A stretch of 64,000 nucleotides of DNA from Serendipita indica DSM 11827 (taxonomy: Eukaryota > Basidiomycota > Agaricomycetes > Sebacinales > Serendipitaceae), in contig CAJVGD010000050.1 in assembly GCA_910890315.1 (NCBI GenBank), forward strand, positions 62,001-126,000. The letters run 5' to 3'. The translations under genes were made by a program, and so were the position numbers. The notes below the pieces were generated by a model. The model saw nothing but the letters and a program-made list of their open reading frames with translations, did no database searches and was not told the DNA's origin. This document shows, one piece after another, positions 25,429 to 56,030 of this stretch. The stretch's first letter is position 1. Each line of letters opens with the position of its first letter.

Positions 25429-27216
25429 CTACTTTCGTTTACGAGAAGGCTTGTCGGTCTCAAAATCCCATTTCTTTTGGATAGCCTCCACAATGTGATC
25501 CGAATCCTGAAAATGCGTCCAGTATCAAAACAATTTTAGCAAGTAGGCTCACCATGCGGAATGTGAACCACCGTCGCGGAACTTTGTTGATAGCTAGCTC
25601 GAGCAATTCTTTGCGCCTGGCTGACCCCAGAGGTTCCCATACCGGTTCATCCGGTACCAAAAGGGCAATCAGATCACGCCTAGATATTTTCCCTGCATCA
25701 AGTTGAGTCTTTGCCAACTTCGCTGTAATGGAGACCAAACTGGCAGACTTGAGCTGTTCAAACTCTTCTGAGTTTAGGGGAAGCAATGGGCCATATTGTG
25801 CGTGTTCAAACTGGAGAAATAATATTGCCAATTGTCAAGTACAAAGAAAGGGACACACCAATGTGATATCGCCTGAGGAAATATCAAGGGTATTGCTCTG
25901 CTCAGCCCGCAGTAAAGTCTGTCCCCATGGCGCCTTTGCAGAGATGGTCAGCCATTGTATTGCACGTGGGTTCTTACACGCACATAATGGTCGACTTGTA
26001 ACAGGTGGTGAGACATGCGCTCGTGATACCCCTGCAGAGGTGATCAGCAATTTGCTTCACTTGACTCTGAAAGTGCACCTCAATGCCAAAGAAATCGAGG
26101 GGTAGGGTACCTGTGCCAAAGTACAAGGGTGAGGTCTGCCCATCGAAGAACCAGTTGTAGTAGTCCACCGGGGCAAATGCCTGGCTACCTAAGTCTAAAT
26201 CCACTCTCGCTTGGATTGATGCGCGTTGATTCAACGGAACTAAATCTGATGCTCTGGTGAGCGCATGGGAATATATCCGACTGCACGTAGATGTACGATC
26301 ACTGTAAGTGGTGAGACTGTGTCATAAGAAACAGGGATTTCACAAACATGATGGCGTTCATTGTGTTGATCATGGCTACTTTTGTATCCTCCAGAGCCGA
26401 ATGGTGAGATTCTATCTGTAGCTATACCGCTCTTAGCCAAGCTAGAGGCGAAGTGTAACGTACTTGTAGTTTGGTTTCATACCACTCTTGAAGTTTCCTC
26501 GCTAATTCACGCTGATTTTGCACACTTAGGCTTTATTCAAGTTCTTCTGGCTCTGCTCATCTCCTCTCAGTGACTGGCAAATACTTACGGATCAATGGCA
26601 TTTTCCATTCCCAGGGCCAGCGCCACTCTTTGTCAAACCACTCTTCCAGCTCGTTCTTTGATGCCAATAGCTTTGTATACTTGTCTTCAAGTGCCGTGTG
26701 TGCGTCATGAGGTGCCTGTGTTAGTTCAGAACGAACTAACAACTCCTGGATAATCCTTGAGTCGCAATTTTGGCAAATCAGGCTGTTTCACCATTGTCTC
26801 TATCACAGCACGCTCGGGTATATCTGGATTCAGATCGGAGCGAGCCTCGATTTCTACGCGCATGAGGCATGATCCTTGAGGTGACAAGGTAGGTCTCCCA
26901 CCTTGTTCAAATGCAGTGACGCGTACCTTTGAGTACTCTCTATCTCCAAACTCGGAGTGCGACTTGTGCTTTTCGACCAATTTGCGCAGACTATCGACAC
27001 TTATCTCCGTTTAATAGATGGCCCTCATATACACCATTATCGACGTACAACTCTTGCTCGAGTCTTCCTCTGGACATTCATCTGTCAGCTTCAATATGGA
27101 TCTCGATGGAACCAGGTGTACCGTTCATGCATGAGTTCGTGAGCGAGTACCAAATCGGTATCTTGAGCCTTTATTAACTCTATAGTGCTCCCAATCTCTG
27201 GCCAACGGGTATTCAT
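25429..27216 (-). CDS. Unrecognised multi-exon family, copy A (probably decayed)
   Basis: Member of a family present four times in this window; I do not recognise the product. It starts MNTRWPEIGSTIELIKAQD. A small exon with GRLEQEF, then VDSLRKLVEKHKSHSEFGDR and EIEARSDLNPDIPERA follow; these helical stretches look coiled-coil-like. Later exons hold HDAHTALEDKYTKLLASKNE, an EWYETKLQ helix, IESHHSALE, and VDYYNWFFDGQTSPLYFGTG. The C-terminal exon carries FEHAQYGPLLPLNSEEFEQL, ISRRDLIALLVPDEPVWEPL and RRKELLELAINKVPRRWFTF. A last exon gives DSDHIVEAIQKKWDFETDKP then SRKRK. In the exon matching ELEYRLSV of the other copies, the frame reads ELE followed by a TAA. The copy may therefore be a pseudogene, or spliced differently. 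About nine short introns. It is head-to-head with the F-box gene at 27440. Confidence 0.6.
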
Positions 27217-27439
27217 GGTCGCGGTACAAGTTCAACCGAGTCGTCACCCTCTTCCATGCGACCTCCTGCAAGAGCGTGAACATTGTCGCATTGCATTCTG
27301 TCACGGTGCCTCGGTCATGTATTACGGCTGGCAAACAAACCATACAATTCGTTCTCCCACCACATCCCACAAAATACGTTCTTGTCCACGGTATTTCCTC
27401 GTTCTTTTCCAGAATGTTCTTGACTTATACAGATAGAAG

Positions 27440-28798
27440 ATGGAGTATACCTCTCGTCCAGATAGGGCCTGCAGCATCGCGCGCTTGCCCACAGAGCTCC
27501 TCGTAGCCACGTTCAAGCTACAAATAGAACCCGTTGATACCAGGGTTCTCCCTTGGCTAAACCCACGAGGTCAACGACACGGTCCAGAAACCGTCGCCAG
27601 TGTTTGTCGGCGCTGGAGACAAATCGCGCTGGATATTCCATATATATGGAGCCATCTTTACATCTCGGATGCGTGGTCCACTGAAAAGCTGAAATCTTAC
27701 TGGCAACAAATGCGCATTCGCTACGCTGGATGCGCCCTCAACGTTACCGTGATCGACGTCAACGTTCCTATCATCGAAGAGGAGCTGCCCTTGAGCTTTG
27801 TCAGTACTCTAAACACCGTGACTCGCCTTGCACATCTTCGCATCGTCATGGCAGACACTAAAGCTGCTGCGTGGGTGTATACCCTGTTTCAACATCTCAC
27901 AGTGAAGCCCACGAGTTTCACCGTACAGACACCCTTTTTTCCGTGTAATCAAATGGATCAAGTGGCTTCATGTTCATCCACGGTCAGATTCTGGGGAGGC
28001 CTTCTAGTCCCCCTTGATCAAGTCTTTACCAGCTCCTGTATGAGCCAACTGACGGACCTTACGTTGGACGGAGTCGTTTCCATGATAAATTGCGCGCCTC
28101 AAACGTACCCCTTGCCACAAATGGAGGCATTACGACGCATTAGAATCAAGCAACCGCAGGAGCATGAAATGGCACCGTTCATCATCGAGGATCTATTTAG
28201 TCTACCAAAGCTCGAAGAATTACACCTCCACGCAGCGTTTAGCGACAATTGGACCATTACGGAGGGCAACCCAGCGACACCTGATGCGCCGTTGCGTAGC
28301 TTGTATATTTCACAATATTTCCCAATCAAGTTTATGTTCGAGAAATACCCTCCCGTTCTCCCCAAACTCGTATCCTTTGGCGTAGAGGAAGTTGAAAAAA
28401 ACGACCTACTCGCCTTTCTTTCCGCCAACCCTACCATCCTCAACTTTTCCTTACCTTCAAACATCAGTCTACGAGCGGCAGATTGGAAAACCACTCACTT
28501 TGACTCTCTCGACGTCCCTCAGGCCCTCAACATCTCTCCATTGCTCCGGAAGCCATTCATATTCTCCAACCTTGCCCGACTTCGACTCACATACAACCCT
28601 ATACACGCCTCCAAGTATAGCAAGCTCATAGAGAAGCGGTGTAGAGCACAAGGGCCAGGTCGTATCCCTCTACTGGTCATCGAGGTGGGCTTGGACGAGG
28701 TGACTAGTGCCCGAGATGTACTTTGTCAACAAGGTGAAGGTGAGAGGGACGTTTGGAAGAGCGAAGACGGGTTACTTTGGTACTTCTTCAATGAATGA
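27440..28798 (+). CDS. F-box protein
   Basis: Single-exon gene of 452 codons. An F-box lies near the N terminus: SIARLPTELLVATFKLQIE, then VASVCRRWRQIALDIPYIW. This helical motif binds Skp1 and would bring a substrate to an SCF ubiquitin ligase. The remainder is a leucine-rich, irregular repeat-like region (for example LTDLTLDGVVSMINC and LPKLEELHLHAAFSDNW) ending in WKSEDGLLWYFFNE. This plan is common in the very large F-box families of Agaricomycetes. The substrate is unknown. The start ATG at 27440 lies only 224 bp from the start of family copy A on the other strand, so the two likely share a promoter. It is not closely related to the other F-box genes in the window outside the F-box. Confidence 0.8.
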   Translation: MEYTSRPDRACSIARLPTELLVATFKLQIEPVDTRVLPWLNPRGQRHGPETVASVCRRWRQIALDIPYIWSHLYISDAWSTEKLKSYWQQMRIRYAGCALNVTVIDVNVPIIEEELPLSFVSTLNTVTRLAHLRIVMADTKAAAWVYTLFQHLTVKPTSFTVQTPFFPCNQMDQVASCSSTVRFWGGLLVPLDQVFTSSCMSQLTDLTLDGVVSMINCAPQTYPLPQMEALRRIRIKQPQEHEMAPFIIEDLFSLPKLEELHLHAAFSDNWTITEGNPATPDAPLRSLYISQYFPIKFMFEKYPPVLPKLVSFGVEEVEKNDLLAFLSANPTILNFSLPSNISLRAADWKTTHFDSLDVPQALNISPLLRKPFIFSNLARLRLTYNPIHASKYSKLIEKRCRAQGPGRIPLLVIEVGLDEVTSARDVLCQQGEGERDVWKSEDGLLWYFFNE

Positions 28799-29212
28799 CG
28801 CATGGAAGAGTCACGCAGCGCCCTTGAGAACAAAGGACGACAATGCGACCCGAATTCTAGGAAGAGTTTGTATACTAGTAATACTCATCTATAAAAACAA
28901 TCTGTGGCGATTTTATAGCAGAAGTCTTCAGTGTTAACATGTCCAGCCAAGCAAGATCCGAGCACCAGTGGCTCAATTATGGTGCGGAGACTGTTGCTCG
29001 CGTCTGTAGACGCTAGCGACGGTCCATGCGAGATGCTTCAATCGTATGGAATAATCCCTACGCAGAAAATTTGGGGATGGGATACCTCCTCTCGTTTGCC
29101 TAAGCTGGCAAGCGGTGAAGCAATACTTGACGCAAAGATCAAGAGACGTGTTGGAAGTTTGCCTTTGATTAGCAAACAGGTGAATGTACAATGATGGCGG
29201 AATAACAACTCT
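28799..29212. other. Intergenic between convergent F-box genes
   Basis: About 400 bases between the ends of two convergent F-box genes, presumably holding both 3' UTRs and terminators. Small open frames here have no recognisable domain. Confidence 0.4.
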
Positions 29213-30622
29213 TCATGAGTAGTCAGGCCACGATAGATAGCAAACGTCTCCCTTCCATTTCTTGACCGCGCTCTTTGCATGGCTATTGCGCATCCAGTCT
29301 GGTTCAGACCTTTGGTCCTGACCGTTTCGTGAGAGACGCAAGGAAAGAGAGGACAATGGTGGCGTGGACTTCTCCCCCTCGCAAAGTATTCGCGTCTGTA
29401 CAAGACTCTCAAACTCTTCCTCCGAGAGCGAGTAGGACGCGCAGTCGACATAGAGGTCCTCGAGTGCCTTGAAACCAGCCAACGGACCTCGATGTAGAAC
29501 TAGTTGCACGGCTCCCGCAGGAATAGACAGTCGGGTCACGCGTGGACAGGCGGCTCCAATAGCCTCACCGTTCACGGCGAGCTTGAGTTCGAGGTCGGTA
29601 ATGGTAATATGATCCACAAGGAACTTGCAAAGTATCCTCGAGTCGTTTGTTGCTACTACAAGCTTTGTGAGGTGTGGAAATCGAAGGGTGGGGAAGAGCC
29701 GACAGAGTTCTGTGAAGCCAAGATGGTCTGTAATCTCCAAGGTATGTAAAGGATATATAAAGCTTTTGTTTGGCATTCTGGACCAGTCTACCCAGTCGCT
29801 GTACACTGAACCCTCCATGACCAAGCTGGTCAAATGCGGACACGTGCGGACCAAGACACCCACAGGCAGCGACGCAGGGGTTTGTGCCTGATTTAGTCTC
29901 CGTCGTTGTGTGACTGATTTCAGGGATGAAAATTTCCGAGGAAACGAGTTCAGACCCAGAGTCGTATCCACCAGATGGAGCTCTTCCACGAGCTCAAAGT
30001 TCTTGCCGGTCATCGTGCACCTGAAAGGTGATTTCCCACTGTTCGATTCGCTGAGCCTTAGATCGGGTGGTCGTGTGTCGGGCTCAACCCCGTGGTAGAT
30101 TTCGAGGCGGCGAGGAGGCGTAGGAAGAAAGTCAATGAATAGACTCGGTATGTAGTTCACTGAGTGCTGGGAGAGATAAAAGGAGATGGTGTCCACTTTG
30201 ACGGCCTTATTGATGAAGAAAAGTTCGAAAACACTCCCAGACTCTGCCGACATCTGGCGCCAGCGATCCCGAACGACAATGTTGAGCACTAGTCCGGAAG
30301 CTCGTTTGAGCATCGTCATCACATAGGACGTGAGAACGCGGAGTGGCCAATAGAGACGATAGTCGATGGTCGTCCAAACGTCGCAGAGATTGAGCATGAT
30401 TTGTCGGAAACGAGAGCATGTTAATGATATGGACACATTGGGAACCGAGTGACCATGCATCACTCGAGTCCCATCGTCCACGCAGGCGACGCGAAAGATT
30501 TCAATCAGAATTTCGGTGGGAAGTCGATAGATGGGAGCGCTGATTGCACTCTGCTGCCCATCTTGTTGTCTGTTCATCCGAAAGAGGAGTGGGGTTGGGT
30601 CCAAGGTAAGGTGGTTGGACAA
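29213..30622 (-). CDS. F-box protein, type 1
   Basis: Uninterrupted gene of up to 469 codons; an internal ATG at 30577 (MNRQQDGQQSAISAPIY) is an equally good start. The F-box reads IYRLPTEILIEIFRVACVDD and is followed by VSISLTCSRFRQIMLNLCD and VWTTIDYRLYWPLRVLTSYV. The rest is a variable Leu-rich region containing FYLSQHSVNYIPSLFIDFLP, VEELHLVDTTLGLNS, and ITDLELKLAVNG followed by PRVTRLSIPAGAVQLVL. It ends in WKGDVCYLSWPDYS. The genes at 34682-36034 and 52719-54131 share this plan and the same C-terminal C-Y-(L/V)-S-W-P-D motif, so they form one paralogous set. Predicted role: Skp1-binding substrate adaptor; the variable C-terminal part would choose the target. Substrate unknown. Confidence 0.8.
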   Translation of the reverse strand: MSNHLTLDPTPLLFRMNRQQDGQQSAISAPIYRLPTEILIEIFRVACVDDGTRVMHGHSVPNVSISLTCSRFRQIMLNLCDVWTTIDYRLYWPLRVLTSYVMTMLKRASGLVLNIVVRDRWRQMSAESGSVFELFFINKAVKVDTISFYLSQHSVNYIPSLFIDFLPTPPRRLEIYHGVEPDTRPPDLRLSESNSGKSPFRCTMTGKNFELVEELHLVDTTLGLNSFPRKFSSLKSVTQRRRLNQAQTPASLPVGVLVRTCPHLTSLVMEGSVYSDWVDWSRMPNKSFIYPLHTLEITDHLGFTELCRLFPTLRFPHLTKLVVATNDSRILCKFLVDHITITDLELKLAVNGEAIGAACPRVTRLSIPAGAVQLVLHRGPLAGFKALEDLYVDCASYSLSEEEFESLVQTRILCEGEKSTPPLSSLSLRLSRNGQDQRSEPDWMRNSHAKSAVKKWKGDVCYLSWPDYS

Positions 30623-30834
30623 GCCGAGGAAGACAGCAAAAAGGCGCCGACAAGACGACCATCATCCCGAAGATCTGTCAATCATTCTTGAGTTCTGCCC
30701 CTGAGTAGATTTTCGACAGGGTTTGCAGACCTTCAGCCTAACCAGTTAGACGAGACCTAGATTTGCAAATAAACATCATTCACTTGGCTTTCTTTCATCA
30801 TGACCGCCCACCAGTGAAGGAAGTGCGGTTAGAA

Positions 30835-31190
30835 CTTTTATAAAGGACCAATGTACAACAACAGCGAGTATACAGCATGTTATACATAATCTGGCCACGA
30901 TAAGTAGCAAACGTCCCCTCCCATCTCTTGACCGCATCCTTTGCATAGGCACTCCGCGTCCAATCCTGTTTCGACTTTTGTTCACTCTGCGGAAGACGCA
31001 ATGATAGCGAGGATAATTATGGCGTGAGTTCATTCTGCTCGCAAAGCACTCGCATCTCCACGAGATCCTCAAACTCGTCTACGGAAAGCGAGTACGCGGT
31101 GCAGTCAGTGTGGAGATCCTTGAGTGCCTTGAAACCGGCCAAAGGACCTCGATGCAGACAGGCGTCAAAGAGTTGGCATCCGGGAAAGTC
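30835..31190 (-). pseudogene. 3' fragment of a type 1 F-box gene
   Basis: This piece corresponds to the last 90 or so codons plus about 45 bases after the stop of the intact gene at 34682-36034. By eye the two stretches (30844-31140 and 34646-34940) match at roughly 95 percent. Compared with that gene it has one C fewer in a C run near 30920, so the final residues are out of frame, and it has no F-box. It is therefore a recent, incomplete copy of a host gene. Its upstream edge runs into a piece resembling the type 2 F-box gene. Confidence 0.75.
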
Positions 31191-31237
31191 AAGCCGTCGA
31201 CGCTATTCTCCTACATTGAGAGTCCTGGAGATAGATA

Positions 31238-31663
31238 TCAATTACTCTCAATCTCGGGTGAGCTTTTAAGACAGGTCGAGTATACGGGTGACCGAAGGAA
31301 GTGCAAGTGCGCAGGACACCCCGTGGTACAGCAAGTTTCGGGAGGAGGGCTTGGAGATGCGGGAGATGTGTACTGGGATGTGGCAATCATCATCTCCGGC
31401 GGGGCGCTCCAGTCGCTGTATGGAGATGCCTGTTGGAATATTATGACCATGGACCCAGGAGAAGGTGGGAAGTGGCTCCATGGCAATGCGTGAGTGAAAT
31501 ATGGCGGGACACTAGATTCTGCAAACGGTTGTGGATCCCAAACGAACGGTCGTTGATTATTGTCATAGTTTTCTGATTCGTCCTGACTATTGGCGTGGAT
31601 CATTTCATTCATCATGGCGCGAGGTATCACAACAGCGCTAAGAGTGACAGAAGGAACGGTCAA
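31238..31663 (-). pseudogene. N-terminal fragment related to the type 2 F-box gene
   Basis: Open frame on the minus strand encoding a Pro/Ser-rich sequence with SPYSDWSAPPEMMIATSQYT followed by SPASPSPPPETC. This aligns with SPYSNWTASPASLMITTSQT then ASPVPLSHSLESPP near the start of the intact gene at 31801-33776. The similarity continues upstream through the region matching its first intron. No F-box or later part follows. It appears to be a truncated paralogue lying just downstream of the intact gene on the same strand. Confidence 0.55.
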
Positions 31664-31800
31664 ACTCTCAGAGCCACTCGGCTCTGCCCCTTATTAACAG
31701 TTGAAGCCTTTAAGATAGTGAGATATGCTAATGAATCCCAAGCTTATTATAGAAACTACGCTAAAGTTACAATACAAAAGGAGAGCATAGTGGGGAGACG

Positions 31801-33776
31801 CTAGGGACGCCATAATCCCGCGAGTTTGGATCCGAGATCCAGACTCGTGCGTTTTATTGTTCGGCGCGTGGTTATACGAGTCGTCGGATAGGTCGAAGGC
31901 CAATAAGAGAGTGAGAGATCAAAGTATCCAAGAGCGATATCTTGAAGCTGCTTTTTGGTCTCGTCACCCGTGAGCGGTATTCGTACCCCCTGTAGGTGTT
32001 CGCATAGAGTGAGATCTCTCGGCTTGTCCGTGGACGAAGGAGAGGAACGCTCATATAGGAAGCGAAGGATACTGACGAGAACCGTCTTAGGCGCTTCGAT
32101 GACCTTGATAAGCTCCGAGTTTGTAAATAATATAGTGATTGCATCCACGGTTTGGTCAGGTTGGACAGGTGACGGGAGATGAGGAGTGAGATGGACAAAG
32201 CGGACATGTGGTAATGATATGATTAGTCTATGAAGATTGGGTGCAGATAGATTTCGACTATGGGAAAGTACTGTCGCTTCCTGGCCCCACCATGTTACGA
32301 TCTCCAACGTACGGAGCGATGGAAGGTATAAAGGGGTGATCGGGGCGGTGAGTGGCCCAATAGTGAAAGCCTGAAGATTCCAGCAACCTTCAACTTCCTT
32401 GGGCTCACCCGAGGCATTTATCTGACCAACTGGCTCCCATTGTCTGCGTGATAGGTTCCAGTAAAAGCAATGCTCGAGGCGTACCTCGTACAGGAATTCG
32501 AGACTTGGAATCTTTGGGAGAAAACAGTTGTATAGACAAAGCACCCTGAGTGAGGTGCTAAACGGTTGGAATATACGTGGAAGTTGAGCGTAGTCAAATT
32601 TGAGTGCTGTAGGTGTGACCCATCCAACATTTTCTAGCTCGAGCGACTCGAGGAATCGCAGATCGAGGTGGAATATCTTGTCGAGATATAACTTGGCAAG
32701 CGCTCTTGCATCGCCATCGAGTTGGTCAATGATTTCGACAAAGCCGAGTGGCATGGCGAGGCGAAACCTCTTATACCTACAGCGCGAGAGATTTCTATGA
32801 AGCTCTGTAATCAAGAAGGCAATATCGCTGAGATGCGTCAGAAATCCTTCCGTCCTGAGTTGACGATAGAGGTCAGCACTCGTACCCAATAGCTTGGGCG
32901 TAATGAGATCTCGTTGATCTTGAATATTAATGTCTGTGATGAATTGAACTCGATCATAGTATCTGTTGATTCGCAGTATCCACGTCTCAACAACCTGCTC
33001 GTCGATGAGAGTGATATAGGCCTTGGCCCATATACTCTCTTGACGTTCTGCTATATCTTTCCACTGTCTACAGACTTGGAGTAGTGTCTCGGGGGTTGCG
33101 AATGGCGAACCACTTGCATCTCGTCGCAGGTTATCGACGTAACAGTCAAATATTCGGTTAAGAATGCTTTGGGGAAGTGTGTTAGCATCTAGCGAATAAA
33201 TAGACGAGAATGGTGCGCCTGAGTCGATTACTTTTGATTTAAAACTTCTTGCTGATGTCGAAAAGTCCGGACTATCGAAAGCAAAGTCGTCGACACCCTG
33301 CCCATTGGATGGCAGCACTGGAAGCTCGTCGATTACGCTCAAATCTATAAAAGTTTTTGATAGAGGTTTTGTAAAAGGACGAGCAAGCTGGCCGGGGCGC
33401 ATTTGCGGACTGACTTGCGGAGTGCCAAGCGTCGCACCGCGTGTAGGAGGAGATTCAAGTGAATGACTAAGAGGTACTGGTGATGCAGTTTGGGATGTGG
33501 TGATCATCAAGCTGGCGGGTGATGCGGTCCAGTTGCTGTATGGAGACGCCGTAATAGAACCTAATGGTGTGTGATATTGCGACGCCTGGGACAAATTTGT
33601 TATTAAGACATTAGCAGAGGCTGATTAATTGCTCCATGGAGAAGCGTGAGCAATATACTGACATATGGCGAGCCGCCGTATCCTACAGACAGCGACGGGA
33701 TGGGAGGAGACGATGTTGGGAAAAAACCAAAGAGCTCTGGCTCTTTTCGACGGGGGGTGGGGATGATTTGGCCCAT
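31801..33776 (-). CDS. F-box protein, type 2, with Ser/Pro-rich N terminus
   Basis: A gene of about 630 codons. I place the start at MGQIIPTPRRKEPELFGFF (33776) in a short first exon. This joins across an intron near 33554-33660 as GYGGSPY to ASQYHTPLGSITASPYS. If that splice is wrong, the start is MSQASQYHTP at 33594. The first 180 residues are a disordered Ser/Pro/Thr-rich region. The F-box follows (LDANTLPQSILNRIFDCYVD, LLQVCRQWKDIAERQESIW), then a Leu-rich variable region (LEFLYEVRLEHCFYWNLSR, LPSLRTLEIVTWWGQ, APNLHRLIISLPHVRFV). The end is SLDLGSKLAGLWRP. It differs from the type 1 genes in length and in its long leader. Predicted SCF adaptor of unknown substrate. A paralogous C-terminal piece lies at 34236-34620 and an N-terminal piece at 31238-31663. 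Confidence 0.75.
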
Positions 33777-34235
33777 CGAGGCAACGATAACACAAAGCGC
33801 ACGCAAGGCGCTCGTCAAGCTTGAGAGCCACCCATACCGCTTCTCACTTTACTGACATGTACAATAGGACATCTATCTGAGAAAATTTTGAATTCAAAAA
33901 GAATCTGGACTTCGCTTTCAGCCTGCAGTTAATTATGGGCGTCCTTAGAGGCATACTAACAACAGACCGTTAGATGGATTTGTGGACGTATCAACAAACT
34001 GTTTAGCGTACTGATGAATAAATATAGCTTAAAGTGGCATAGGGTTCGATTAATTTATATATAATTCAAGACAGAAGGATGTTTCATTCCTATTGAAGAA
34101 TGTAGGCAGGTTCAAGTTATGACTTGCTGTACAACACAGCTTTATCGAGACGAGACATTCAACTGAATCCCATCGAATTTGCATAAAAACTGTCGATTAT
34201 CCTACAATATCAGAGGGAAGAAAGACAAAGGTAAA
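33777..34235. other. AT-rich intergenic region
   Basis: About 460 bases upstream of the type 2 F-box gene. It is more AT-rich than its surroundings around 33880-34200 and has no coding resemblance. It probably contains the promoter of the type 2 gene. Confidence 0.4.
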
Positions 34236-34636
34236 CTAAGGTCGCCATAATGCTACCAGCATGGACCCAAAATGCAGGCCCGTCTCTACTATATTTCGTC
34301 GTCTGGATCTACGACCCTTCGGATACGTCAAAGACCAATAAGAAAGGGCGAGATTAAAGTACTCTAGACCAATATCTTGGAGCTGTTCGTGAGTCTCTTC
34401 ACCCGTGAGTGAGACTAGTAGCCTCTTCGGGTGCTCGTACAATGTAAGATGTCTTGGTTTGTCGGCGGATAGACAAAGAGGCAGCCGCTCATATAAGAAG
34501 CGGAGGATACCGATGAGAACTGGTCTCGGCGCTTCGATGACCTTGATTTTCTTTGCATTTGCGAAGAATGCGGCGATTGTATCCACGGTTGAGTCGGGTT
34601 GGCTAGGCGGCAAGCGTTGAGTGAGAGTCGGTTGAA
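34236..34636 (-). pseudogene. 3' fragment of a type 2 F-box paralogue
   Basis: The open frame aligns with the last 125 residues of the intact gene at 31801-33776. Shared blocks include DSTVDTIAAFFANAKKIKVI, ILIG/ILVS variants before LRFLYER, DKPRHLTLYEH, the LTGEETHEQLQDIGLEYFNL helix, and the same C-terminal LWRP ending. No F-box is present. It begins where the 3' flank of the type 1 gene at 34682 ends, so the join marks a rearrangement. I estimate amino-acid identity to the intact paralogue at around half, so it is older than the type 1 fragment duplication. Confidence 0.7.
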
Positions 34637-34681
34637 CCTTGACAAGGAACCAATGTACAACAACAGCGAGTATACAGCATG

Positions 34682-36034: not shown

Positions 36035-36510
36035 GTGAGAGTGATGTCCAAGTATGCTGGCTTGGACTCGCCGAGGTGGTTATAATTAAAAGCACCCACA
36101 AATAAGCGCTGACAGGGCCTATCACTTGTCATCTGAAACGGCCCGGCTTACGATTGAGGTGGGGACAATCCTATTGTATGACTCGAACCTGCAATGTCTT
36201 TGGACAGTAGGACGACTAATACTACTACACGACTCTCAGGCGTGGTCCAACTTCCAGTGGTTTCCCGTTAACCGCGCGAGGCCGTGCACTCGCAGGGCTC
36301 GCAGTACGCTGTGCAGATTGTATCCATACGTAAATACTCGCCTGTTTCCTGTGGAATTTCGGATGATTTGTGAGATTTTGTGGCCGAGTGCCGCTGGAGT
36401 CGGGAGTAAGCAGAGCAGCCGAAGAATCGTCACCTCTTGTCCTCGACGTCGCCGGCAGATTTCTCGCAGCGTGGACGGCGCGTTAGCTTGTCTACCAATT
36501 CGCACGTATT
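36035..36510. other. Intergenic region upstream of the P4-ATPase gene
   Basis: About 475 bases between the divergent type 1 F-box and P4-ATPase starts, expected to hold both promoters. A stretch near 36175-36240 looks superficially like part of a tRNA on the minus strand but does not fold as one. Nothing else was recognised. Confidence 0.45.
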
Positions 36511-45031: not shown

Positions 45032-47276
45032 TCAATTCGTCAAACTCGACGTGGCATTCGCAGAAGATGCAGGCTCCCTGCGCTCTGCAAGAACTCGATT
45101 TACCACTTCTTCCTCGCGGACCAACCACGCTCCAAACGCGGGTGTGCGCAACCAGCGCTGGTAAAACTCGCGACGTCTGCTCGAAGACTTGAATGGGAGC
45201 GGAGAGCCGTTCTTTTCGAGCGAAGCCATCATGTCCACCGTACTAAACGGTGCTAGTCTCTCCGTGCTCTCCGCCCTCGCTCTTTGGCGTTGAGCGTTGG
45301 CTTGGAATGTAGACGCGGGGCTGGAATTGCCGGTAATGGAGAGAGTGGATGCCGAAGGCTGAATCGGCATGAGTGTTGTTAGGTATCGGTTCAGTGGGAC
45401 CAAGAGCGCCCTCGCGCGCGCTGCAAAATGTTGTCGAAGTAGATTCGACACGCTCAGACGTTCATGCGAACTCGAACTGCCTGTCCTGCTGGTACTATTG
45501 GTAGCTGCCTTGTGCATTGCGGTTTCGAGTTGCTTGAGCAAGACGCGGTCCTTTGAGATGTACCGTCGATGGGTCGTCTTGAATCCTGGTGTTGGACCAG
45601 GTGATGGCGTCGTTTTCCTGTTTGGGTGTTGAGCGTGGAATGCGCTATAGGACCAGGACGCACGATGGAGTCAGGCTGACAATGTGTGGCCAGTGCTTGC
45701 ACTCTTCGTATAGAAACGGGTTCGTGGTTCCAATCATGATTCCAGCCACAGGTGCATTCTTGTTCATGAACCGTTTGTGGTCAGGATCGTGAATCGTAAA
45801 GTAGGGTCGAAAATCGCCTGCCATTGGCAACTATGACCCGAAAAGTGAATCCAATGCAAATAGCATGTTCGAGGGTAAATAAGGTTGAGTGACATAGTCG
45901 TTCGTTAGCTTATGCCGTAGACGAACGTTTCAGGGAACAACATAGGTTATGGGCAACGGGTTTGCGGTACGGAATAGGTGACTGTACTTACCGGTCTGAC
46001 CCAGTCCCTGAGCCACCAGATAGCCGCGCTTGCAATGGCTGGTGATGGTGCGTACAGGAAGATAGGTTCGGCAAGCACGATGCACTCCCATAGGGACCAA
46101 AGGGATGGGAGGATGGCTTGGAAGATTTCCACCGCAGCATATTCAAGTGGTGGATGCGAAGCGAGTATCTGCATACCCTTGTGAAGGCTGCGCGAGAGTT
46201 TGCGGACACGTGACGTACATGCAGGTGTGGGTCAAAGGCCTCTCCAAATGAAGCCGTCTCGGTCAGTTGTTGCTGATCAATGCTTTTGGGTATCTCCACG
46301 TGTAGGATGGAGCCAAGGAATCCTAGTTCAAGCGTAGCGCCGGCTTGCAGTGCAGGCCTGATGGACATGAGCATGGGCGCATAAGCACAAGGATGCGTAC
46401 CAAGATGAGATTCCATGAATGGCCGTCTCCAGCATCTCGTTTCCATGTTTCTGGAACATGGGAATTGCAGTGGCGATTGCCGCAGAGAAAAGTGCTGGGA
46501 ATTGGTGCCGAGTGAGAAATATGATGGATCGCTAGGACAAAGATCAGACTTTTGTCATCGAAGTCTCTCCAGACCTCACCTGAGAGTAGCCGCGCTTCGA
46601 CGTCTTGTCCTTTTGTTGTAGAAAAGCGCTGTATCCATACAAGAACCCGTCGTCTTGCTTGTACTTCAATGTCTCTTCGACATCATCCGGAATTGATAGG
46701 CGCCTGGCATAGTCCGAACGTATGCGGAAAGAGTGGATATGAATGCTTGTTGCTCCGTGGGACGTATCAGGGAAGGCGGAAAATGCGCTATAATCGATGA
46801 TGGATAAGAAGGTGGTCAAGAGCTTCAAGCACAGACACCTACTGACATGTTCTCGCATTCTTGCGGGTTTAGTTCAACCGCCGGATGGATGGATTCGACT
46901 TTGGGGCCGTAGTCAACGTCAAAATAGGCTACAGAAACAATTTAGATATGCCTAAATCATTCCTCATGACATATAACGTACCAACGACAATGCAGAGCAT
47001 CCATTGACGGAATTGCTGCAACTTGTCCCGGTTCAACACGACCACCGACTCAGCTTTGGACATATCCTTTGGTAAAGTGTTTGACCTATTCAGAGAAGCT
47101 CGTTTATTCGTAACTGCCTCATGTCTGGAAGCGTCAGAGGATTCCGTCGGAGCCGTCATCTCAACAAGATTTGGCGACGAGGACACGAGGTTCGACGAAA
47201 CCTCTTCTTGCTTCAACGTCGAGAAAGAGCTGGTTGAAGAACTTGGTGGGCCATTTTCCAGGGTCGTGCCAGACAT
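45032..47276 (-). CDS. DENN-domain protein, DENND6-like Rab exchange factor
   Basis: In animals DENND6 proteins activate Rab GTPases such as Rab14 on endosomes. The start at 47276 gives MSGTTLENGPPSSSTSSFST with a disordered leader. The uDENN part follows: DKLQQFRQWMLCIVVVDFDV then DYGPKVESIHPAVELNPQEC. Next are FAFSAFPDTSH-like sequence and SFRIRSD, and FLYGYSAFLQQKDKTSKRGY with SQRSIIFLTRHQFPALFSA. The cDENN part has LEYAAVEIFQAILPSLWSLW, LAEPIFLYAPSPAIASAAIW, and FRPYFTIHDPDHKRF with FLYEECKHWPHIVSL. The C-terminal part has HRRYISKDRVLLKQLE and REFYQRWLRTPAFGAWLVRE. It ends SSLTN. About nine short introns. Its start codon and 5' flank are duplicated at about 50095-50395. Confidence 0.85.
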
Positions 47277-47791
47277 ACAATCTATGTGGTCGGCGTCAAG
47301 TCAAACTCAATTACGCGGGGGGATGTGTCGAACAAAGGTGACTCGGAGAACATTTGTTCGGTTATTCGCCGAATGTAGAACTTGAGCGAGTAGATGACCT
47401 CGGAAGCAAATAAAATCCCATTTCGTGTCAATCTGACTCTTCCGCTTGAAGTTCCGCTCCAAACGTTTTCCGCGAAGAGACCAATAGTCCCCTCTTGAGG
47501 TTAAATCCTAATCTCTGACTTGATAGAAAACGGAGACTTGTCTTTATGCGTCACGCGCGTATGATCACTCACTAAGTGCATATTAATTGATTAAAGGTGG
47601 GTCAAACATTGGACATACATTTAACAGAATCGTGTATGCATTGAAAACATCATCGTACTTTGTTCCCAAGGCCTTTCAATTGTGAACAAGACTGTCCATG
47701 GTCCCCCCCTTTCTCGTGTATAAGCTTGCGGAGTACCTTATCAAAGTTGCTCAGATCGATTATTCAATGGACTTTGACATACCATTCTGGA
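47277..47791. repeat. DENND6 5' flank, duplicated at about 50095-50620
   Basis: This interval holds the divergent DENND6 promoter and the 3' flank of family copy B. Bases 47267-47440 resemble 50095-50275 (both contain ATCTATGTGGTCG near their start and CCTCGGAAGC about 130 bases later). Weaker similarity continues through TAATCTCYGACT to about 47550/50395. The last 60 bases before copy B's stop resemble the flanks before copies C and D. Confidence 0.65.
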
Positions 47792-49540
47792 TTATTTTTC
47801 TCTGGACTTTGGCGTGTCAGTTTCAAAATCCCATTTCCGATTGACAGTATCCACAATAGCATCCGGATACTATAATCTATTGAGTATAGAAATGAATATA
47901 GCAAGTAGACTCACCGAGCACAATGTGAGCCAATATGGGGCAACATTGCCTATGGCGTTCTTGAGCAGTTCTTTGCGCCTGGCTAATCCGAGAGGTTCCC
48001 AAACCGGTTCATCCGGCACCATAATAGCAACCAAATCACGCCTAGAGATGATCCCTATATTAGGTTTCAGCCTTTGTTTCACTCGTTGCAATGGATTCCT
48101 GTGCATACACTCGCTTTTGAAGCTCATGGACCTGCGTGCATGAACTTGAATGAGTTGTTTGACCTCTTGTGAATTTAGGGGAAGCACTGGGCCATATTGC
48201 GCAACTTCAAACTGAAACTAAATCAGTATCATTTTCATGTGTCAGCTAGAAAATGGAAGGGCGCACCAGGGTAATATACTCAAGCAACAGACCTCCAAGA
48301 TCGTCTGTCTGCTCGGCCTTCAGCAGGGCCACAGCTGGTACAGCATGATAGAACGGCAGCTGGAACCTCAGTTAATTTTTGTGACGGGAATTTTAGAATC
48401 CTACATTCTGAGGGAAATCGACAGGAAGAGTCCCTATGCCAAAATACAGAGGTGAAGGTTTCCCATTGAAGAACCAGTTGTAGTAGTCCACCGAAACGAG
48501 TGCATGGCTGTTCATTTCTCGATCCATCTTCTCTTGTATTGATCCGCGATCCTTTGATGGGAGTAAACCGAATACTCTGTCGAGCGCACGAGAATATATC
48601 CGACTACATGTCGATGCACAATCGCTAAATTCATGAGACTGCGCCATGTGATGTATAATCCACGAACACAGTGCCATTTATTGTGTTGATCATAGTTGCT
48701 TTCGTGTTCTCCAGTGCCGAATGGTGTGGTTCCATCAATGGCTGAACAAAACTCAGATAGAATTAGAGTTGAAGAGTAACCTATCTGTAGTTTTATTTTG
48801 TACCATTCCTGAAGACTTCTCGCACATTCGTGCTGATTGCATACACTCAGGCGGTATTCGAGTTCTTGATATCTGGCTATGGTTGTCATATCTGTATGAC
48901 TGGCCAACGCTCACCCGCCAATGGCATTCTCACTTCTCAGGGCAACCAGGGCACTCGCTTCCACCACTCTCGTAGCTCGTTCGTTGATGCCAATAATTTT
49001 GTATATTTGTCTTCGTGTGTCGTGTGTGCATCGCGAAGCGCCTGTGCGAGATCAGAGCCGAATGAAAGCTCCCGAACTATCCTTGAATCGCAATTATCAA
49101 TGTTTGGATTGTCTGACCTTCGCCTCTAACGATGTGTGCTCGGCCAGGTTCGGATTAAGATTTGAGCGAGTCTCGATTTCTACACAAATGAATCGGGAGA
49201 CTCATAGAGTAGGCTAGCTACTGCACCTTCTTCGAATGCAAAAATGAGTACGTTGGAGTATTCCCTACTTTCTTTCTCGGAATGTGGCTTGTGCTTTTCG
49301 ACCAGCGTACGTAGCTCATCAACGCTTTATTTCTGCTCAGTAGAGAAATTTAATACATTATCGATGCACAAATCTTGTTCCAGTCTTGCTCTGGACGTTT
49401 GAGGATCAGTTTCTATGTGGATAATCCCGATAGAGCTAGGCATACCGCCCGCGCATCAGCTCGTGTACGAGTGCTAGATCTGCATCTTGAGCCCTCAAAA
49501 GCTCAGCTGTGCTTCCAATTTCAGGCCAACGGCTACTCAT
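47792..49540 (-). CDS. Unrecognised multi-exon family, copy B (possibly decayed)
   Basis: Tandem member of the four-copy family; product not recognised. It starts MSSRWPEIGSTAELLRAQDA, followed by exons with RARLEQDF, VDELRTLVEKHKPHSEKESR and, after another intron, DAHTTHEDKYTKLLASTNEL. Next are ELEYRLSVCNQHECARSLQE with WYKIKLQ, MEPHHSALENTKATMINTIN, and DRGSIQEKMDREMNSHALVS with VDYYNWFFNGKPSPLYFGIG. The C-terminal exon has EVAQYGPVLPLNSQEVKQLI, ISRRDLVAIMVPDEPVWEPL and RRKELLKNAIG. The last exon ends NRKWDFETDTPKSREK. In the exon after ELREWWKRVPWL the frame meets a TGA before EVRMPLA, so this copy may be non-functional. Coordinates of start and stop match the other copies well; exon borders are inferred by comparing the four. 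Confidence 0.6.
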
Positions 49541-50621
49541 GGTCGTGGTAGTGGTTCAAGCTGCTTAGTGCCGCCCAACTGCTAGCCTTGTACCGCCGCT
49601 CCTGTGAGAGCGCACGTGGCGAGAGATGGACAGTAATGTGATTCGGAATGCTTGAAAGATGAGATTGTATACATATCAAGGCCAAGTATGCAGGCAGGTG
49701 AGAGCGACGGGCACAACACGGAGAGTAAACTAAGAGTATCAGTACAGACTATATCGATACTACTACGTTACTTCGCAACCTCAATGCTCGGTCAAAGGTC
49801 AAACTCAGCACCCGCCTCTCAGAGAACACGGCTTCATCGAGATCCAACCGACTCGGAAGCGAAACGGCCTCTTATTTAGACAGCTTTCGAGAGTAAGTAA
49901 CTGCTACAAACGTTTCCCGGGTCTAGACTAGTCATAGGTAAAGCGCAACCCATAATCTGTTGATATTCATCGGCAGTCTTTTGACGGCACCGAGATGGCC
50001 TGGCCGGCGCCTGCCAGTCCCCTTTTAGCCTGAACACGATAGATTCCCTCGACTCGTCAACTCCTTTCGACTCTATCACATCATCTCATTGCACAGACAT
50101 AAAATCTATGTGGTCGACGTCAAGGTCAAACTTTATGCGTGTCAATAAAGTACCTCGAATATCTTAAACATACGTTGTAGGAGAACATTGCTTGGCTCCT
50201 CATCGAACATAGAACTTAAGCGAATAGGTTGAAATGCCCTCGGAAGCGAATAAAACGGGCTATTCGGTTTCATTGCGACAGTTGGACTTGCCGCACTTCA
50301 CTTTTCGTGAACATTGTATGTGATATTTTCGTGTAAATCGTAATCTCCGACTCTCTACAGAAATAGATGCCCTGTCTTTAACGCGGAGTTGGTTGAGAGG
50401 TGGGAGGATAAGCATATTTGGAGACAGAGTGAGTTCCGTATTCTTGTGTTATGATTATCGTATTTGGCTCCAGACGATCCTTGTCACTATGGAAAGCACG
50501 GCCCTTGATCAGGCATTATTACTCCATAGCGTCCTATAATTTCAATCTGGCCCCAGCTTGCGAAACATCTTGTCAATCATTTAAGTCGACCCTACGACCG
50601 AATTCAAGGTTTCTGTTTGAA
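49541..50621. repeat. Duplicated intergenic block between copies B and C
   Basis: About 1,080 bases. The first part (49541-49760) resembles the 5' flank of copy C (52319-52490). The middle (49945-50095) resembles 52573-52720, just upstream of the F-box gene, but no F-box gene follows here. The rest (50095-50395) resembles the DENND6 5' flank at 47267-47550, and the end resembles the 3' flanks of copies B and D. No intact gene is visible. Confidence 0.65.
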
Positions 50622-52318
50622 TCATTTTTCTCTGGACTTTGGCTTGTCCGTGTCAAAGTCCCATTTCCGCAAGACAGCTTCCACAATTTTTTCCGAATCC
50701 TGTTAACGCATCTAGTGTTGAAAAATCTAGCAAGCATACTCACGCGACGAAATGTGAGCCACCATGGGTCAATTTTGCCGATTGCCATCCTGAGCAATTC
50801 TTTGCGCCGCGCTGATCCTAGAGGTTCCCAGACGGGTTCATCCGGTACCAAAAGGGCACTTAAGTCACGCCGAGAGATGTTCCCTATATCGGGTTTCAGC
50901 CTTCGCGTCACTTGTTTGGATACCAAGCCGGCAGAGTTGAGCCGCTCAAACTCTCGTGAGTTTAGGGGAAGCAGTGGGCAGTACTGCGCAAGTTCAAACT
51001 GAAGAGGTATTATCATTGTTGTCGGCTAAAAACGAAGAGGCACACCAGATTAACGTCACTAGGGTAAAGAGTGTTGAGGATATCCCTCTGCTCGGCCAGC
51101 TGTACGGAGTGTCGCGAAGTCTCCCAATAAACCTTTTCAAGGTTGGTCAATCAGCCGCTTCGCTTGACCAAACGCACAGGAACACGAGAGGAATCGAGGG
51201 GAAGAATACCGATGCCAAAGTGCAAAGGCGAGGGTTCTCCATCGAAGAACCAGTTGTAGTAGGGTACTGGAACGAGTGCTTGACTGGCTGATTCTAAATC
51301 CTTGCTTGCCTCGACTAAAATGCGATGGTTCGACGGACTTAAATTGTCTGCGCTGCTACTTGCATTGAATATATCTGGTTGCATGTCCATGCACGTTTTC
51401 TAGAATTCATCAGGGTGAGTCGTAAAAAGGAGGAGCTACAAACATGATGTCGTTTATTCTGGTGGCCATGATTGCTTTTGTGTTCTCCAGGGCCGAATGG
51501 TGAGATTCTATCATCAGCTGAACAGAACTCAGAACTAGAGTTGAAGAGATGCCGTGGATAAAATACCAGAAGCTTGGTTCTATACCACTCGTTAAGGCTA
51601 CTTGCACATTTGCGCTGCTCGTGCACGCTTAGGCGGTATTCGAGTTCTCCATGTCTGAGTATGATTGTCATATCTATGTGGCTGGTTAATACTTACCTGC
51701 TAATGGCATTCGCACATCCCAGGGTGACGACGGTCGTCGCTCGAACCAGTCTGTTAGTTCGTCCCTTGAAGCCAATAAGCTTGTATATTTGCCTTCGTGT
51801 GTCATTTGTGCAGCAAGAAGCGCCTGTGCGAGTTGAGAACCGAGTGAAAGCTCCTGAATTGTCCTTGAATTGTGATTCCGGTTGATTGGATCTTCTGACC
51901 TTCGCCCCTAACGATGCGTGCTCAGCTAGGTTCGGATTGAGATCCGAGCGAGCCTCAATTTCTAGATAGATGAATCAGGAACTTCACAGAGCAGGTGTCT
52001 ACCCCACCTTGTTCGAATGCACTGAGAAGTACGTTTGAATATTCCCTGCTCTCTTCCTTCGAATGTGGCTTGTGCTTTTCAACCAGCGCGCGCAGCCCAT
52101 CAACGCTTTATCTCTATTTAATAGAGGAATTTTGTATATCGCCGACGCACAACTCTTGTTCCAATCTTGCCCTTGACGTTTGCTCATTAGTTTCAATGTC
52201 GGTTCCGATAGCACTAGGCGTACCGCTCGCGCATGAGCTCATGTACGAGTGCTAGATCTGCATCTTGAGTCCTCAGAAGCTCTACAGTGCTTCCAATTTC
52301 AGGCCAACGGCTGCTCAT
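50622..52318 (-). CDS. Unrecognised multi-exon family, copy C
   Basis: Tandem member of the same family. It starts MSSRWPEIGSTVELLRTQDA, then ARLEQEF and VDGLRALVEKHKPHSKEESR-like sequence. Later exons encode ALLAAQMTHEGKYTSLLASR with DELTDWFERRPSSPWDVRMP, ELEYRLSVHEQRKCASSLNE with WYRTKLL, and ESHHSALENTKAIMATRIND. These are followed by LVPVPYYNWFFDGEPSPLHF and FGIGILPLDSS. The C-terminal exon has FELAQYCPLLPLNSREFERL, ISRRDLSALLVPDEPVWEPL and RRKELLRMAIGKIDPWWLTF, and the last exon ends RKWDFDTDKPKSREK. The acceptor before ELEYRLSV gives an awkward phase by eye, so integrity is not certain. About nine short introns. It is divergent from the F-box gene at 52719. Confidence 0.6.
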
Positions 52319-52718
52319 GATCGTGGTAGAGGTTCAAGTTACTTGCCGGTGGGCCAGCTGCCAGCCCTCCACCGCCGCTCCTGCGAAAGCGCATGTGATG
52401 AGGGATGGGCACTAAAGTGATTCATAATGCTTGAGAGATGAGATTGTGTACATATTGAGCCTAACTATGCAGGCAGGTGAGAGCTATACCCTATTCAGGC
52501 GGCTTCCGACGGGGAAGTAACTGCACCAAGCATTTTCCGCATCGAGACTAGTCATAGGTAAAGTATCTTTGGCGCAACTCATAATCTATTGATATTCATC
52601 GGCAGTCGTTTGACGGCACCGAGATGGCTTGGCCAGCGCTTGCCAGTCGGCTTTTAGCCCGGGCACGATAGATTCCCTCGACTCGTCAACTCCTTTCGAC
52701 TCCACCAGTATCATCTGA
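52319..52718. promoter_or_regulatory. Shared divergent promoter region, copy C / F-box gene
   Basis: A 400-base region between the head-to-head starts of copy C and the F-box gene. It contains a block near 52425-52462 (AATGCTTGAGAGATGAGATT) also found upstream of copies B and D at about the same distance from the start. Bases 52573-52718 are repeated at 49945-50095. Confidence 0.5.
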
Positions 52719-54131
52719 TTGCAAATGCGCAGAAAAACAAAGCCAAATAAGCAAACGGTGCGCGACACCGGCACTCTCATCTTTTCCCTCCCCTCCGAAC
52801 TTTTGATCGACATATTTCGCCTCGCATGCACCGACGACCGGACTAGACTTGCTCGGGGACATCCACAGGCCAATATAGCCATCTCCATGACTTGTTCTAC
52901 ATTCCGAGCCATCATACTCGAACTTCCCGACGCGTGGACGACGATTGACTTTCATCTCTACTGGCCACTTCGCGTACTCGTCTCCTATGTGACAAAGGTC
53001 CTCAAATGGTGTCGTGACCTCCCTCTCAATATCATCGTACGAGACGGCTGGCGGAACATGACGGCTCCCTGGCAGGACCTGGCAAGCCTCTTCCAGAGAC
53101 TGTTTGCAAAGGTCTCCAAGGTCGATACCATCTCATTCTACATTTCTAGATACGACTTTGATCCTCTACCTGAACAATGGACAGACTGCCTTCCATCTCC
53201 CCCTCGACGCCTCGAAATTCACCACGCTGTGGAATTCGACACTCGACCGAAGCAACAGCGGCCGTCTCAAGCCCCAAAAGACGAAACTCAGCCTCTCAGG
53301 TGCTCGATGATGGACAGCGACTACATCTCGCTCATCGAGGAAATCGAGTTGGTCGACACAATTATCTACCTCGACTATGAACTGCAAGCGCCCTTGCCTT
53401 GGAAATCCTTTACGCAAAGCCGACGAGCCGGGCAGATGTGCACATCAGCTACTATGCATGGCGATTACGTCTTTCGTATGTGTCCAGACATACATACCAT
53501 TGTCCTTCAAGGCGGAGTCTTCAGACACTCGCTGAATAATCCTCGTATGCCCAAGACACGCTACATTCCTCCAGTTCATACACTCGAATTCCACGACCAT
53601 CACGGCTTTGCAAGTTTTATGAAGAAGTATCCAAAGATTCACTTTCCTCAACTCGTCAAGCTTACATTGGGAACGTACGATCCTCTCCTGCTTTCCCAGC
53701 TCCTTGCACTCCATCCAACGATCCTCGACCTTAGCCTGGGCGCCGTCAGAGGTGCAGAGGTCTGGAAAGCAGCGTGTCCTCAAGTCACCAAACTCTCCAT
53801 TCCAGCCGCCGGCCTCCAAGTTCTTCGCGGTTCATCCTCTCATGGAGCATCGGCAATCGTCTTCCCAGAGCTGATGAATCTGCACATGGACTGCACTGAT
53901 TACTCGCTCTGTGTCGACGAGTTTGAGGAGCTCGTCGAGACTATGATCATGGAAGAAGGCGTAGTCTGTTCGCGAAAGCAACCAACCTCGCTCTCATTCC
54001 GTATCCCAGCCGATGAGCGTGAGAGGAGATGTAGAGAAGCGTCTGCTTGGACTCGCAGCTGGTATGCGAAGCATGCGGTAATTCACTGGAACGGTGATTT
54101 GTGCTATGTATCCTGGCCAGATGTCCTATGA
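52719..54131 (+). CDS. F-box protein, type 1
   Basis: Uninterrupted gene of 470 codons starting MQMRRKTKPNKQTVRDTGTL. The F-box SLPSELLIDIFRLACTDDRT is followed by IAISMTCSTFRAIILELPDA and WTTIDFHLYWPLRVLVSYV. The variable part holds FYISRYDFDPLPEQWTDCLP, DYISLIEEIELVDTIIYLDY, PTILDLSLGAVRGAEVW and VTKLSIPAAGLQVLR. The end is WNGDLCYVSWPDVL. It is a clear paralogue of the genes at 29213 and 34682, now in a different island and on the other strand. Predicted SCF adaptor; substrate unknown. It lies between family copies C and D, and interrupts what would otherwise be a regular tandem array. Confidence 0.8.
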   Translation: MQMRRKTKPNKQTVRDTGTLIFSLPSELLIDIFRLACTDDRTRLARGHPQANIAISMTCSTFRAIILELPDAWTTIDFHLYWPLRVLVSYVTKVLKWCRDLPLNIIVRDGWRNMTAPWQDLASLFQRLFAKVSKVDTISFYISRYDFDPLPEQWTDCLPSPPRRLEIHHAVEFDTRPKQQRPSQAPKDETQPLRCSMMDSDYISLIEEIELVDTIIYLDYELQAPLPWKSFTQSRRAGQMCTSATMHGDYVFRMCPDIHTIVLQGGVFRHSLNNPRMPKTRYIPPVHTLEFHDHHGFASFMKKYPKIHFPQLVKLTLGTYDPLLLSQLLALHPTILDLSLGAVRGAEVWKAACPQVTKLSIPAAGLQVLRGSSSHGASAIVFPELMNLHMDCTDYSLCVDEFEELVETMIMEEGVVCSRKQPTSLSFRIPADERERRCREASAWTRSWYAKHAVIHWNGDLCYVSWPDVL

Positions 54132-54323
54132 AACCCTCTGGGTCCGCTTTCATTGTACTGCCGATGTGTATTGAAATTTTTGTTCATATTTAGGTGCCAT
54201 ATAGCCTGTATTTAATGTGAACAAGCCTAATTTTGATCAAGCATTACTCCAGCTTTATTCCTTGGGTTTATTTTGTCAAACCTCGATTATTCGACGGAGT
54301 CCACATGTCGTTCTGGATTAGTT

Positions 54324-56030
54324 TTAATTGGGCATTGGCTTGTCTGTTTCAAAGTCCCATTTCCGACCCATGGCATCCACAATGAAATCCGAATTCTAGT
54401 GAGGCATCTAGTACTGAAATGAATTTAGCGGGTAGACTCACCTTTCGAAATGTGAGCCACTCTGGGAGAACGTTGCCGATGGCCATCTTGATCAATCCTT
54501 TGCGCGCAACTGATCCGAAAGGTTCCCAGACCAATTTATCCGGCGCCATAAGAGCAACCAAACTACGCCGAGATATGCTTTCTATATTAAGTCTTAGTTT
54601 TTGTCTCGCTTGCTGTGATAGATACCAACTGGAAAACTTTACTCGTTCAAACTCTTGTGAGTTTAGGGGAAGCAATGGACCGTATTGCGCGAGTTCAAAC
54701 TGGATAAGTATCATCTTCATTCGTCAGCTAAAAAGGAAAGGACATACCAGAGTGATATAGTCGGAATCCATGCGTCCAAGTTCATTTGTCTGCTCGGCCT
54801 CTAGCAGTGACACTGCCGGGACCCTAGAAATGAACTGCTACGGGGAGGTGAGTAAACTTGTGTGGGAGGAATTGTTCAAGCGTACAATAATCTGTGTAGA
54901 AAAATTGAGGGGAAGAACACTGATACCAAAGTGCAAAGGCGAGGGTTTCCCCACATTGAAGAACGAGTTGTAGTAGTCCACTGGAACGAGAGCCCGGCTG
55001 GCTGCTTCTAGATCCATCTTCTCTTGGATCAATGCGCGATGCCGTAACGGAAGTAAACTGGATGCTTTGTCAAGCCCATGGGAGTATATCCGACTACACG
55101 TCGATGCACAATCGCTATGATTGATGAAACTATGTCATGAGAAGGATCATTAACAAACATGATTGCGTTTATTGTGTTGATCATAGTTGTTTTCGTGTTC
55201 TCCAGAGCCGAATGGTGTGATTCCATCAGCGGCTGAACAGAGTTCAGATAGAACTAGAGTTGGAGTCGCTGAGGTTAACATGCCTGTAGTTTGGTTTCGT
55301 ACCACTCCTGAAGGTTCCTCGCACATGTGCGCTGATTGTGTACGCTCAGGCGGTATTCGAGTTCTTGATGTCTGGCTGTGGTTGTCATATCTGTATGACT
55401 GGCTGGTACTTACCCGATAATGGCATTCGCACCTCCCAAGGCTCTTGCGGCTTTCGCATTACCCACTCTTTTAGTTCATCCGTTGAAGCCAACAGCTTTG
55501 TATATTTGTCTTCATGTGTCGTGTGGGCATCAAGAAGCGCCTTTGCGGGTCCAGGCAAGTCTGGCGTAGTCTATATCGTCCTTGAGTCGTATGGTTTGCT
55601 CATTGAGCCATCTCACTTCTAACGACGTGTACTCAGGTATCTTCGGATTCAGATCCGAGCGAGCCTCGATTTCTAAATGAATGCGTGACGTGGCTTCATA
55701 TTCAAAGTAGCTCTCTTACCTTGTTCGAATGCAGCGATGATCACCTGTGAATACTCTATGTTTTCTTCCTCAGGCTGTAGCTTGTGCTTTTCGACTAATG
55801 CGCGTAGCCCATCAACGCTTTATCCCTGTTCATTAGATGGATCCCATGTACTGCTATTTACGTACAACTCTTGCTCCAGTCTCGCACTGGGTACTCGCCT
55901 GTCAACTCGTACAGATCCAATAGGGCCAGGCTTACCGCTCGCGCATGAGCTCTTGAGCGAGTGCCAGATCTGCGTCTTGAGCCCTCATAAGCTCTACTGT
56001 GCTTCCAATTTCTGGCCAACGGGTATTCAT
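54324..56030 (-). CDS. Unrecognised multi-exon family, copy D (best preserved)
   Basis: The least disturbed member by hand splicing. Exon 1: MNTRWPEIGSTVELMRAQDA with LALAQELMRER. A tiny exon gives ARLEQEF. Exon 3: VDGLRALVEKHKLQPEEENI with EYSQVIIAAFEQ. Exon 4: EIEARSDLNPKIPEYTSLE. Exon 5: ALLDAHTTHEDKYTKLLAST with DELKEWV and EVRMPLS. Exon 6: ARHQELEYRLSVHNQRTCAR with LQEWYETKLQ. Exon 7: PLMESHHSALENTKTTMINT. Exon 8: CASTCSRIYSHGLDKASSLL then LVPVDYYNSFFN. Exon 9: SLLEAEQTNELGRMDSDYIT then FELAQYGPLLPLNSQEFERV, ISRRSLVALMAPDKLVWEPF and AIGNVLPEWLTFRK. The last exon gives NSDFIVDAMGRKWDFETDKP and MPN. Total about 400 residues, mostly helical, charged, with no signal peptide or membrane segment. 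One donor (after EWYETKLQ) reads GCATGT, a GC rather than GT donor. Function unknown. Confidence 0.65.

Follow-up and report, generated by a model that had tools for sequence, protein, structure and literature searches.

F-BAR (EFC) domains start at the N-terminus of the proteins that carry them, and their first part is the FCH segment (PF00611). CIP4, FBP17, srGAP2, FCHo2 and cytokinesis protein 2 have the pattern (R/K)ER-x-x-(L/I/V)-E-x-x-(F/Y) near their start, and we found the same pattern near the start of a four-copy gene family of the fungus Serendipita indica, where copies 3 and 4 preserve it and copies 1 and 2 nearly do. The family was analyzed within one stretch of 64,000 nucleotides, which we call the window. 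Unlike the F-BAR proteins, it scores below the FCH cut-off, and of the 78 positions in the profile about 37-44 are matched. The searches revealed no SH3, RhoGAP or other partner domain in it, and its C-terminal half resembles nothing searched. The other described families that bear on this locus are the F-box-like families, which are numerous in mushroom-forming fungi. They occupy the same gene cluster and stand head to head with two of the copies, but the family itself has no F-box match (PF12937, none up to E 10 when the models of copies 1, 3 and 4 were compared with Pfam). A full-text literature search naming F-BAR or FCH returned no paper. What the window holds is a real, old and local gene family of an ordinary kind with a faint F-BAR-like start. 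If this F-BAR likeness is true, a conserved membrane-scaffold domain is drifting almost past recognition in a locally expanded family; if it is false, we are dealing with one more orphan family, mainly of use for annotation.

Gene structure of three unbroken copies and one broken copy

The four copies all lie on the minus strand, at the coordinates given for them in a preliminary description of this DNA.

25429..27216, minus strand: copy 1, 11 exons, model of 392 aa
Exons of copy 1, high to low: 27216-27122, 27069-27049, 26999-26902, 26853-26792, 26745-26589, 26501-26464, 26421-26348, 26301-26079, 25933-25859, 25810-25553, 25506-25429
47792..49540, minus strand: copy 2, broken, with in-frame stops and the frame lost in exons 5-6
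50622..52318, minus strand: copy 3, 11 exons, model of 410 aa
54324..56030, minus strand: copy 4, 11 exons, model of 409 aa, GC donor at intron 6

Comparison of the window with itself (blastn) joined the copies with E-values from 2.5e-103 to 0 and 68-75% nucleotide identity over the longest piece of each pair, a likeness far beyond chance. Searching the window for additional copies with tblastn turned up, outside the four, only two weak overlapping matches near 42.18-42.25 kb (E 0.15 and 0.81), which we judged to be chance. Viral and prokaryote contigs, where a eukaryotic gene is not expected, were also scanned and gave 63 and 72 pattern matches, none of them a relative. The blocks named in the preliminary description were all recovered, namely M(N/S)(T/S)RWPEIGST, (D/P)YYN-x-FF, ISRR-x-L-x-A-(L/I)-(L/M)-x-PD and RKWDF(E/D)TD, the last of which reads KKWDFETD in copy 1.

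When splicing was modelled by alignment, every copy resolved into 11 exons, with its 10 introns at corresponding sites, so that the matching intron places reported before hold while the earlier count of about nine introns does not. The borders are GT-AG in 39 of the 40 introns and GC-AG in one, a tally that is not independent evidence because we chose the splice sites ourselves. Intron length is 39-55 nt in 38 of the 40; the remaining two, of 87 and 145 nt, both belong to copy 1. The longer of them is intron 8 (25934-26078), about three times the length of its counterparts in the other copies. A branch-point-like CTRAY was found in 12 of the 40 introns (shuffled mean 6.1, shuffled maximum 15), which lends the introns weak support.

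Copies 1, 3 and 4 gave unbroken models, each with one unusual splice choice that is our own and was predicted from sequence. In copy 1 the acceptor of intron 5 that is common to the other copies leads to a stop and a later acceptor preserves the frame, leaving the model 14 alignment columns shorter at this site. In copy 3 exon 8 differs by one base, for which an alternative donor of intron 7 compensates, and in copy 4 the choice is the GC donor. Copy 2 does not keep the homologous acceptor of intron 4. Its exon 10 (47915-48211) exceeds that of the other copies by about 40 bases.

FCH and F-BAR likeness of the N-terminus

No curated cut-off of Pfam or NCBIfam was reached by the full models, and neither collection returned a strong profile match to a known domain or to a transposon protein, the kind of match that had been named beforehand as speaking against an unrecognised family. 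The earlier statement that no named domain fits is thus right at curated thresholds, but it misses a repeatable sub-threshold likeness to FCH/F-BAR at the N-terminus. When the N-termini were scanned alone, all four matched Pfam FCH below threshold at residues ~25-74, and FCH was the sole Pfam family common to the four. Against a cut-off of 27.8 bits, which marks FCH membership, the best score was 24.5 bits (copy 3, E 3.4e-5), followed by 20.2 bits for copy 4 (E 7.7e-4) and 16.7 bits for copy 2 (E 0.0094); the whole models scored 15.8, 17.2 and 21.1 bits, all below the cut-off, with E 0.018 for the whole copy 1 model. The four copies do not count as independent witnesses for this likeness. The part concerned can be illustrated with copy 4.

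55720..56030, minus strand: exons 1-3 of copy 4, which encode the FCH/F-BAR-like N-terminus; residues 26-62 match best (E 7.7e-4)

Pieces of 45-90 aa from F-BAR proteins, used as positive controls, scored 49.8, 53.5 and 67.3 bits with Pfam FCH (3 of 3). In 40 control sequences (reversed, heptad-block-shuffled or shuffled) FCH never came up at E up to 1, and their lowest E-value against any Pfam family was 0.0026. For two inexact reversals typed by hand, the scan returned FmiP_Thoc5 at E 0.0021 and 0.038, which indicates that chance matches of helical sequence near 0.002 do occur.

We then aligned the N-terminal alignment of the family by hhalign with a reference alignment made of stretches of CIP4, FBP17, srGAP2 and FCHo2 that came from a PDB search. 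This gave a score of 27.0 over 48 columns, with a probability of only 45.6%. All 400 shuffled alignments stayed below this score (maximum 24.8 among 200 block shuffles and 19.1 among 200 column shuffles), the column-reversed alignment reached 17.9, and single copies scored 22.9-25.3. Natural controls scored lower as well: 117 segments of 19 other window ORFs, which were not selected for helix content, did not exceed 17.8, and a pair of shorter coiled-coil pieces reached 16.1 and 12.0. In a PDB profile search CIP4 (F-BAR) came up at E 3.2, with residues 28-58 aligned on 29-59, behind ten chains that are not F-BAR; the full-length PDB profile search and two single-sequence PDB searches contained no F-BAR chain. 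The best PDB sequence matches of the individual searches had E 0.049, 0.084, 0.96 and 0.16.

We treat the FCH likeness as a lead and not as membership, and refrain from classing the family with F-BAR; on these profile scores the chances of F-BAR descent appear about even. The reading we tentatively put first, with slightly less than even confidence, is that of a local, partly decaying family whose proteins, about 400 aa long, are soluble and F-BAR-like. Tandem and ectopic duplication between unrelated genes would have produced a local multi-copy nuclear gene family, in which the first ~75 residues would hold a strongly diverged FCH segment. The N-terminal half may form an F-BAR-like helical dimer, a scaffold at the membrane or cytoskeleton, that would carry the C-terminal region with its YYN-x-FF and ISRR-x-L blocks. 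Constraint is moderate, and the array would be heading towards partial loss.

It is also quite possible, if somewhat doubtful, that the family consists of helical orphan proteins with no F-BAR descent and that the FCH likeness is a chance resemblance between amphipathic helices. That every FCH score falls under the cut-off fits such an origin, as do the ten chains that outrank CIP4. However, FCH is the only Pfam family found in all four N-termini, it is placed at the N-terminus, where F-BAR domains start, and both the shuffled and the natural controls gave lower scores.

The rest of the protein yielded no likeness of this kind. A Pfam scan of middle and C-terminal pieces gave no match. For the full models NCBIfam gave a single match at E 0.31, below its cut-off. 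WD40_alt, DUF2458, DUF3074 and Glyco_hydro_67N, together with PDB entries 2r1f (E 0.049), 2pz8 (E 0.16) and 4e8u, were rejected as weak matches from single scans or copies or as generic helices. AlphaFold2 run on exon 10 and exon 8 alone, the largest contiguous pieces, gave mean pLDDT values of 45 and 63, that is, low confidence. The protein is likely to be soluble because a simple hydropathy scan revealed no signal-peptide-like start and no transmembrane-like stretch; the highest 19-residue Kyte-Doolittle mean was 1.19, and no stretch is strongly hydrophobic. Hydropathy periodicity was uninformative: copies 1 and 4 had one segment that peaked at the helical angle, and copy 3 had none.

Selection, duplication and probable exchange between copies

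The preliminary description had noted many differences at third codon positions and suggested past selection on a protein, and both points were borne out in copies 1, 3 and 4 by position counts, Fisher tests and dN/dS. Copy 2 was excluded from the codon-position count. In the three remaining pairs the differences at positions 1/2/3 numbered 108/99/162, 106/94/148 and 100/95/146, so that third positions hold 162 of 369, 148 of 348 and 146 of 341 differences (chi-square p 8e-5 to 1e-3). The proportions pN/pS were 0.251/0.550, 0.239/0.509 and 0.240/0.427, with pN below pS in all three pairs (Fisher p 1.5e-18, 1.2e-15 and 2.9e-9). Whole-model dN/dS was 0.32-0.46 by NG86, 0.45-0.61 by ML and 0.51-0.70 by YN00. 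In all six pairs, under first-round splice models, exons were 70-76% identical and intron cores 58-66%. Selection on the protein was purifying in the past and moderate in strength.

Parts of the models come close to neutrality. Over alignment columns 92-200 the copy 1-3 pair has dN 0.431 and dS 0.470 (YN00, ratio 0.92). Over columns 200-300 the copy 3-4 pair has dN 0.509 and dS 0.713 by NG86, and dN 0.593 and dS 0.499 by YN00 (ratio 1.19), part of this region being read through the alternative splice of copy 3. These last values bear on the view that all four copies are decaying and that none makes a functional protein any longer. So does the whole-model dN/dS of the same pair, which is high for a working gene (0.61 by ML, 0.70 by YN00), as do the broken state of copy 2 and the unusual splice choice that each of copies 1, 3 and 4 requires. 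Yet frames run unbroken through 11 exons in these three copies, whose models share 57-60% pairwise protein identity, and synonymous change clearly exceeds non-synonymous change over whole models. We consider complete decay unlikely.

Copies 2 and 3 belong to a simple tandem duplication with two units.

47270..50093: unit A of the duplication, with copy 2; its self-blastn segments follow the order of their matches in unit B
50094..52723: unit B of the duplication, with copy 3, ending at the start of an F-box-like ORF (52719)

The segments of unit A that match unit B are 47270-47415, 47788-49705 (in pieces) and 49873-50093. At one end the shared pieces take in the 5' end of the gene 3' of copy 2 (~46-47.3 kb), which from its reading may be DENN-like, although a pair of its exon pieces matched nothing in Pfam; at the other end they take in the 5' flanking sequence of the F-box-like ORF that starts at 52719. 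Flanks mostly differ between copies, except for copies 2 and 3. A domesticated or degenerate mobile-element protein would fit the several copies and their mostly different flanks, but we regard this origin as hardly credible given the ten introns at matching places, the shared flanks of copies 2 and 3, and a Pfam scan without any transposon match, in which the models of copies 1, 3 and 4 matched no transposase, integrase or reverse transcriptase up to E 10.

The informative sites number 170, and 45 of the first 62 join copies 2 and 3, whereas 55 of the remaining 108 join copies 2 and 4. This contrast was reached by none of 2000 permutations, and the switch point lies near 48996 in copy 2 and 55495 in copy 4. 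The copies read as mosaics, and exchange between them is strongly indicated as the best account of the site pattern. By identity, exon 9 falls into two types that are shared crosswise: identity is 60% between copies 1 and 3, 67% between copies 2 and 4, and 42-49% in the other four pairs. The site pattern offers a clean small example of likely exchange within an old gene array.

Neighbouring F-box-like genes

Two of the copies share their 5' side with an F-box-like ORF on the opposite strand, and three further F-box-like ORFs form a cluster nearby.

27437..28798, plus strand: ORF that matches Pfam F-box-like (E 2.1e-6, passing the cut-off), in head-to-head orientation with copy 1, first start codons ~220 bp apart
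52719..54131, plus strand: F-box-like ORF, in head-to-head orientation with copy 3, first start codons ~400 bp apart; ~50% protein identity to ORF 34682-36079
29213-30661, 31801-33624 and 34682-36079, minus strand: F-box-like ORF cluster, Pfam scores just under cut-off

At 0.001 Pfam gave nothing for the ORF at 52719..54131 itself, which is called F-box-like on account of its relatives at 29-36 kb. An Rpb5 gene lies 5' of copy 4. Other genes in the window encode a transketolase, an ABC transporter, a P-type ATPase and a nucleotide-sugar transporter. The gene content and the short introns would fit a basidiomycete source.

The link of the family to the F-box genes is one of position only. An orphan helical family might act as a partner or substrate adaptor of its F-box-like neighbours, as the head-to-head placement of copies 1 and 3 would allow; that the gene on the 5' side of copy 4 is Rpb5 and not an F-box gene argues against such a partnership. 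A recognition or regulation role is compatible with the head-to-head F-box-like genes and the apparent exchange, which fit it and do not show it. We think it very improbable that the array is an F-BAR-derived new fungal membrane-scaffold family that diversifies by exchange and cooperates with the F-box genes that stand head to head with it, self/non-self recognition being one example.

The F-box-like cluster contains a 94% identical repeat (30826-31139 with 34629-34942) that includes gene ends, and with this repeat the cluster at 29213-36079 looks like F-box gene turnover. A 63-bp match (81%) joins 31055-31117 and 34858-34920, in minus-strand F-box-like sequence, with 53878-53940 in the plus-strand ORF at 52719-54131, as expected from the homology of these stretches.
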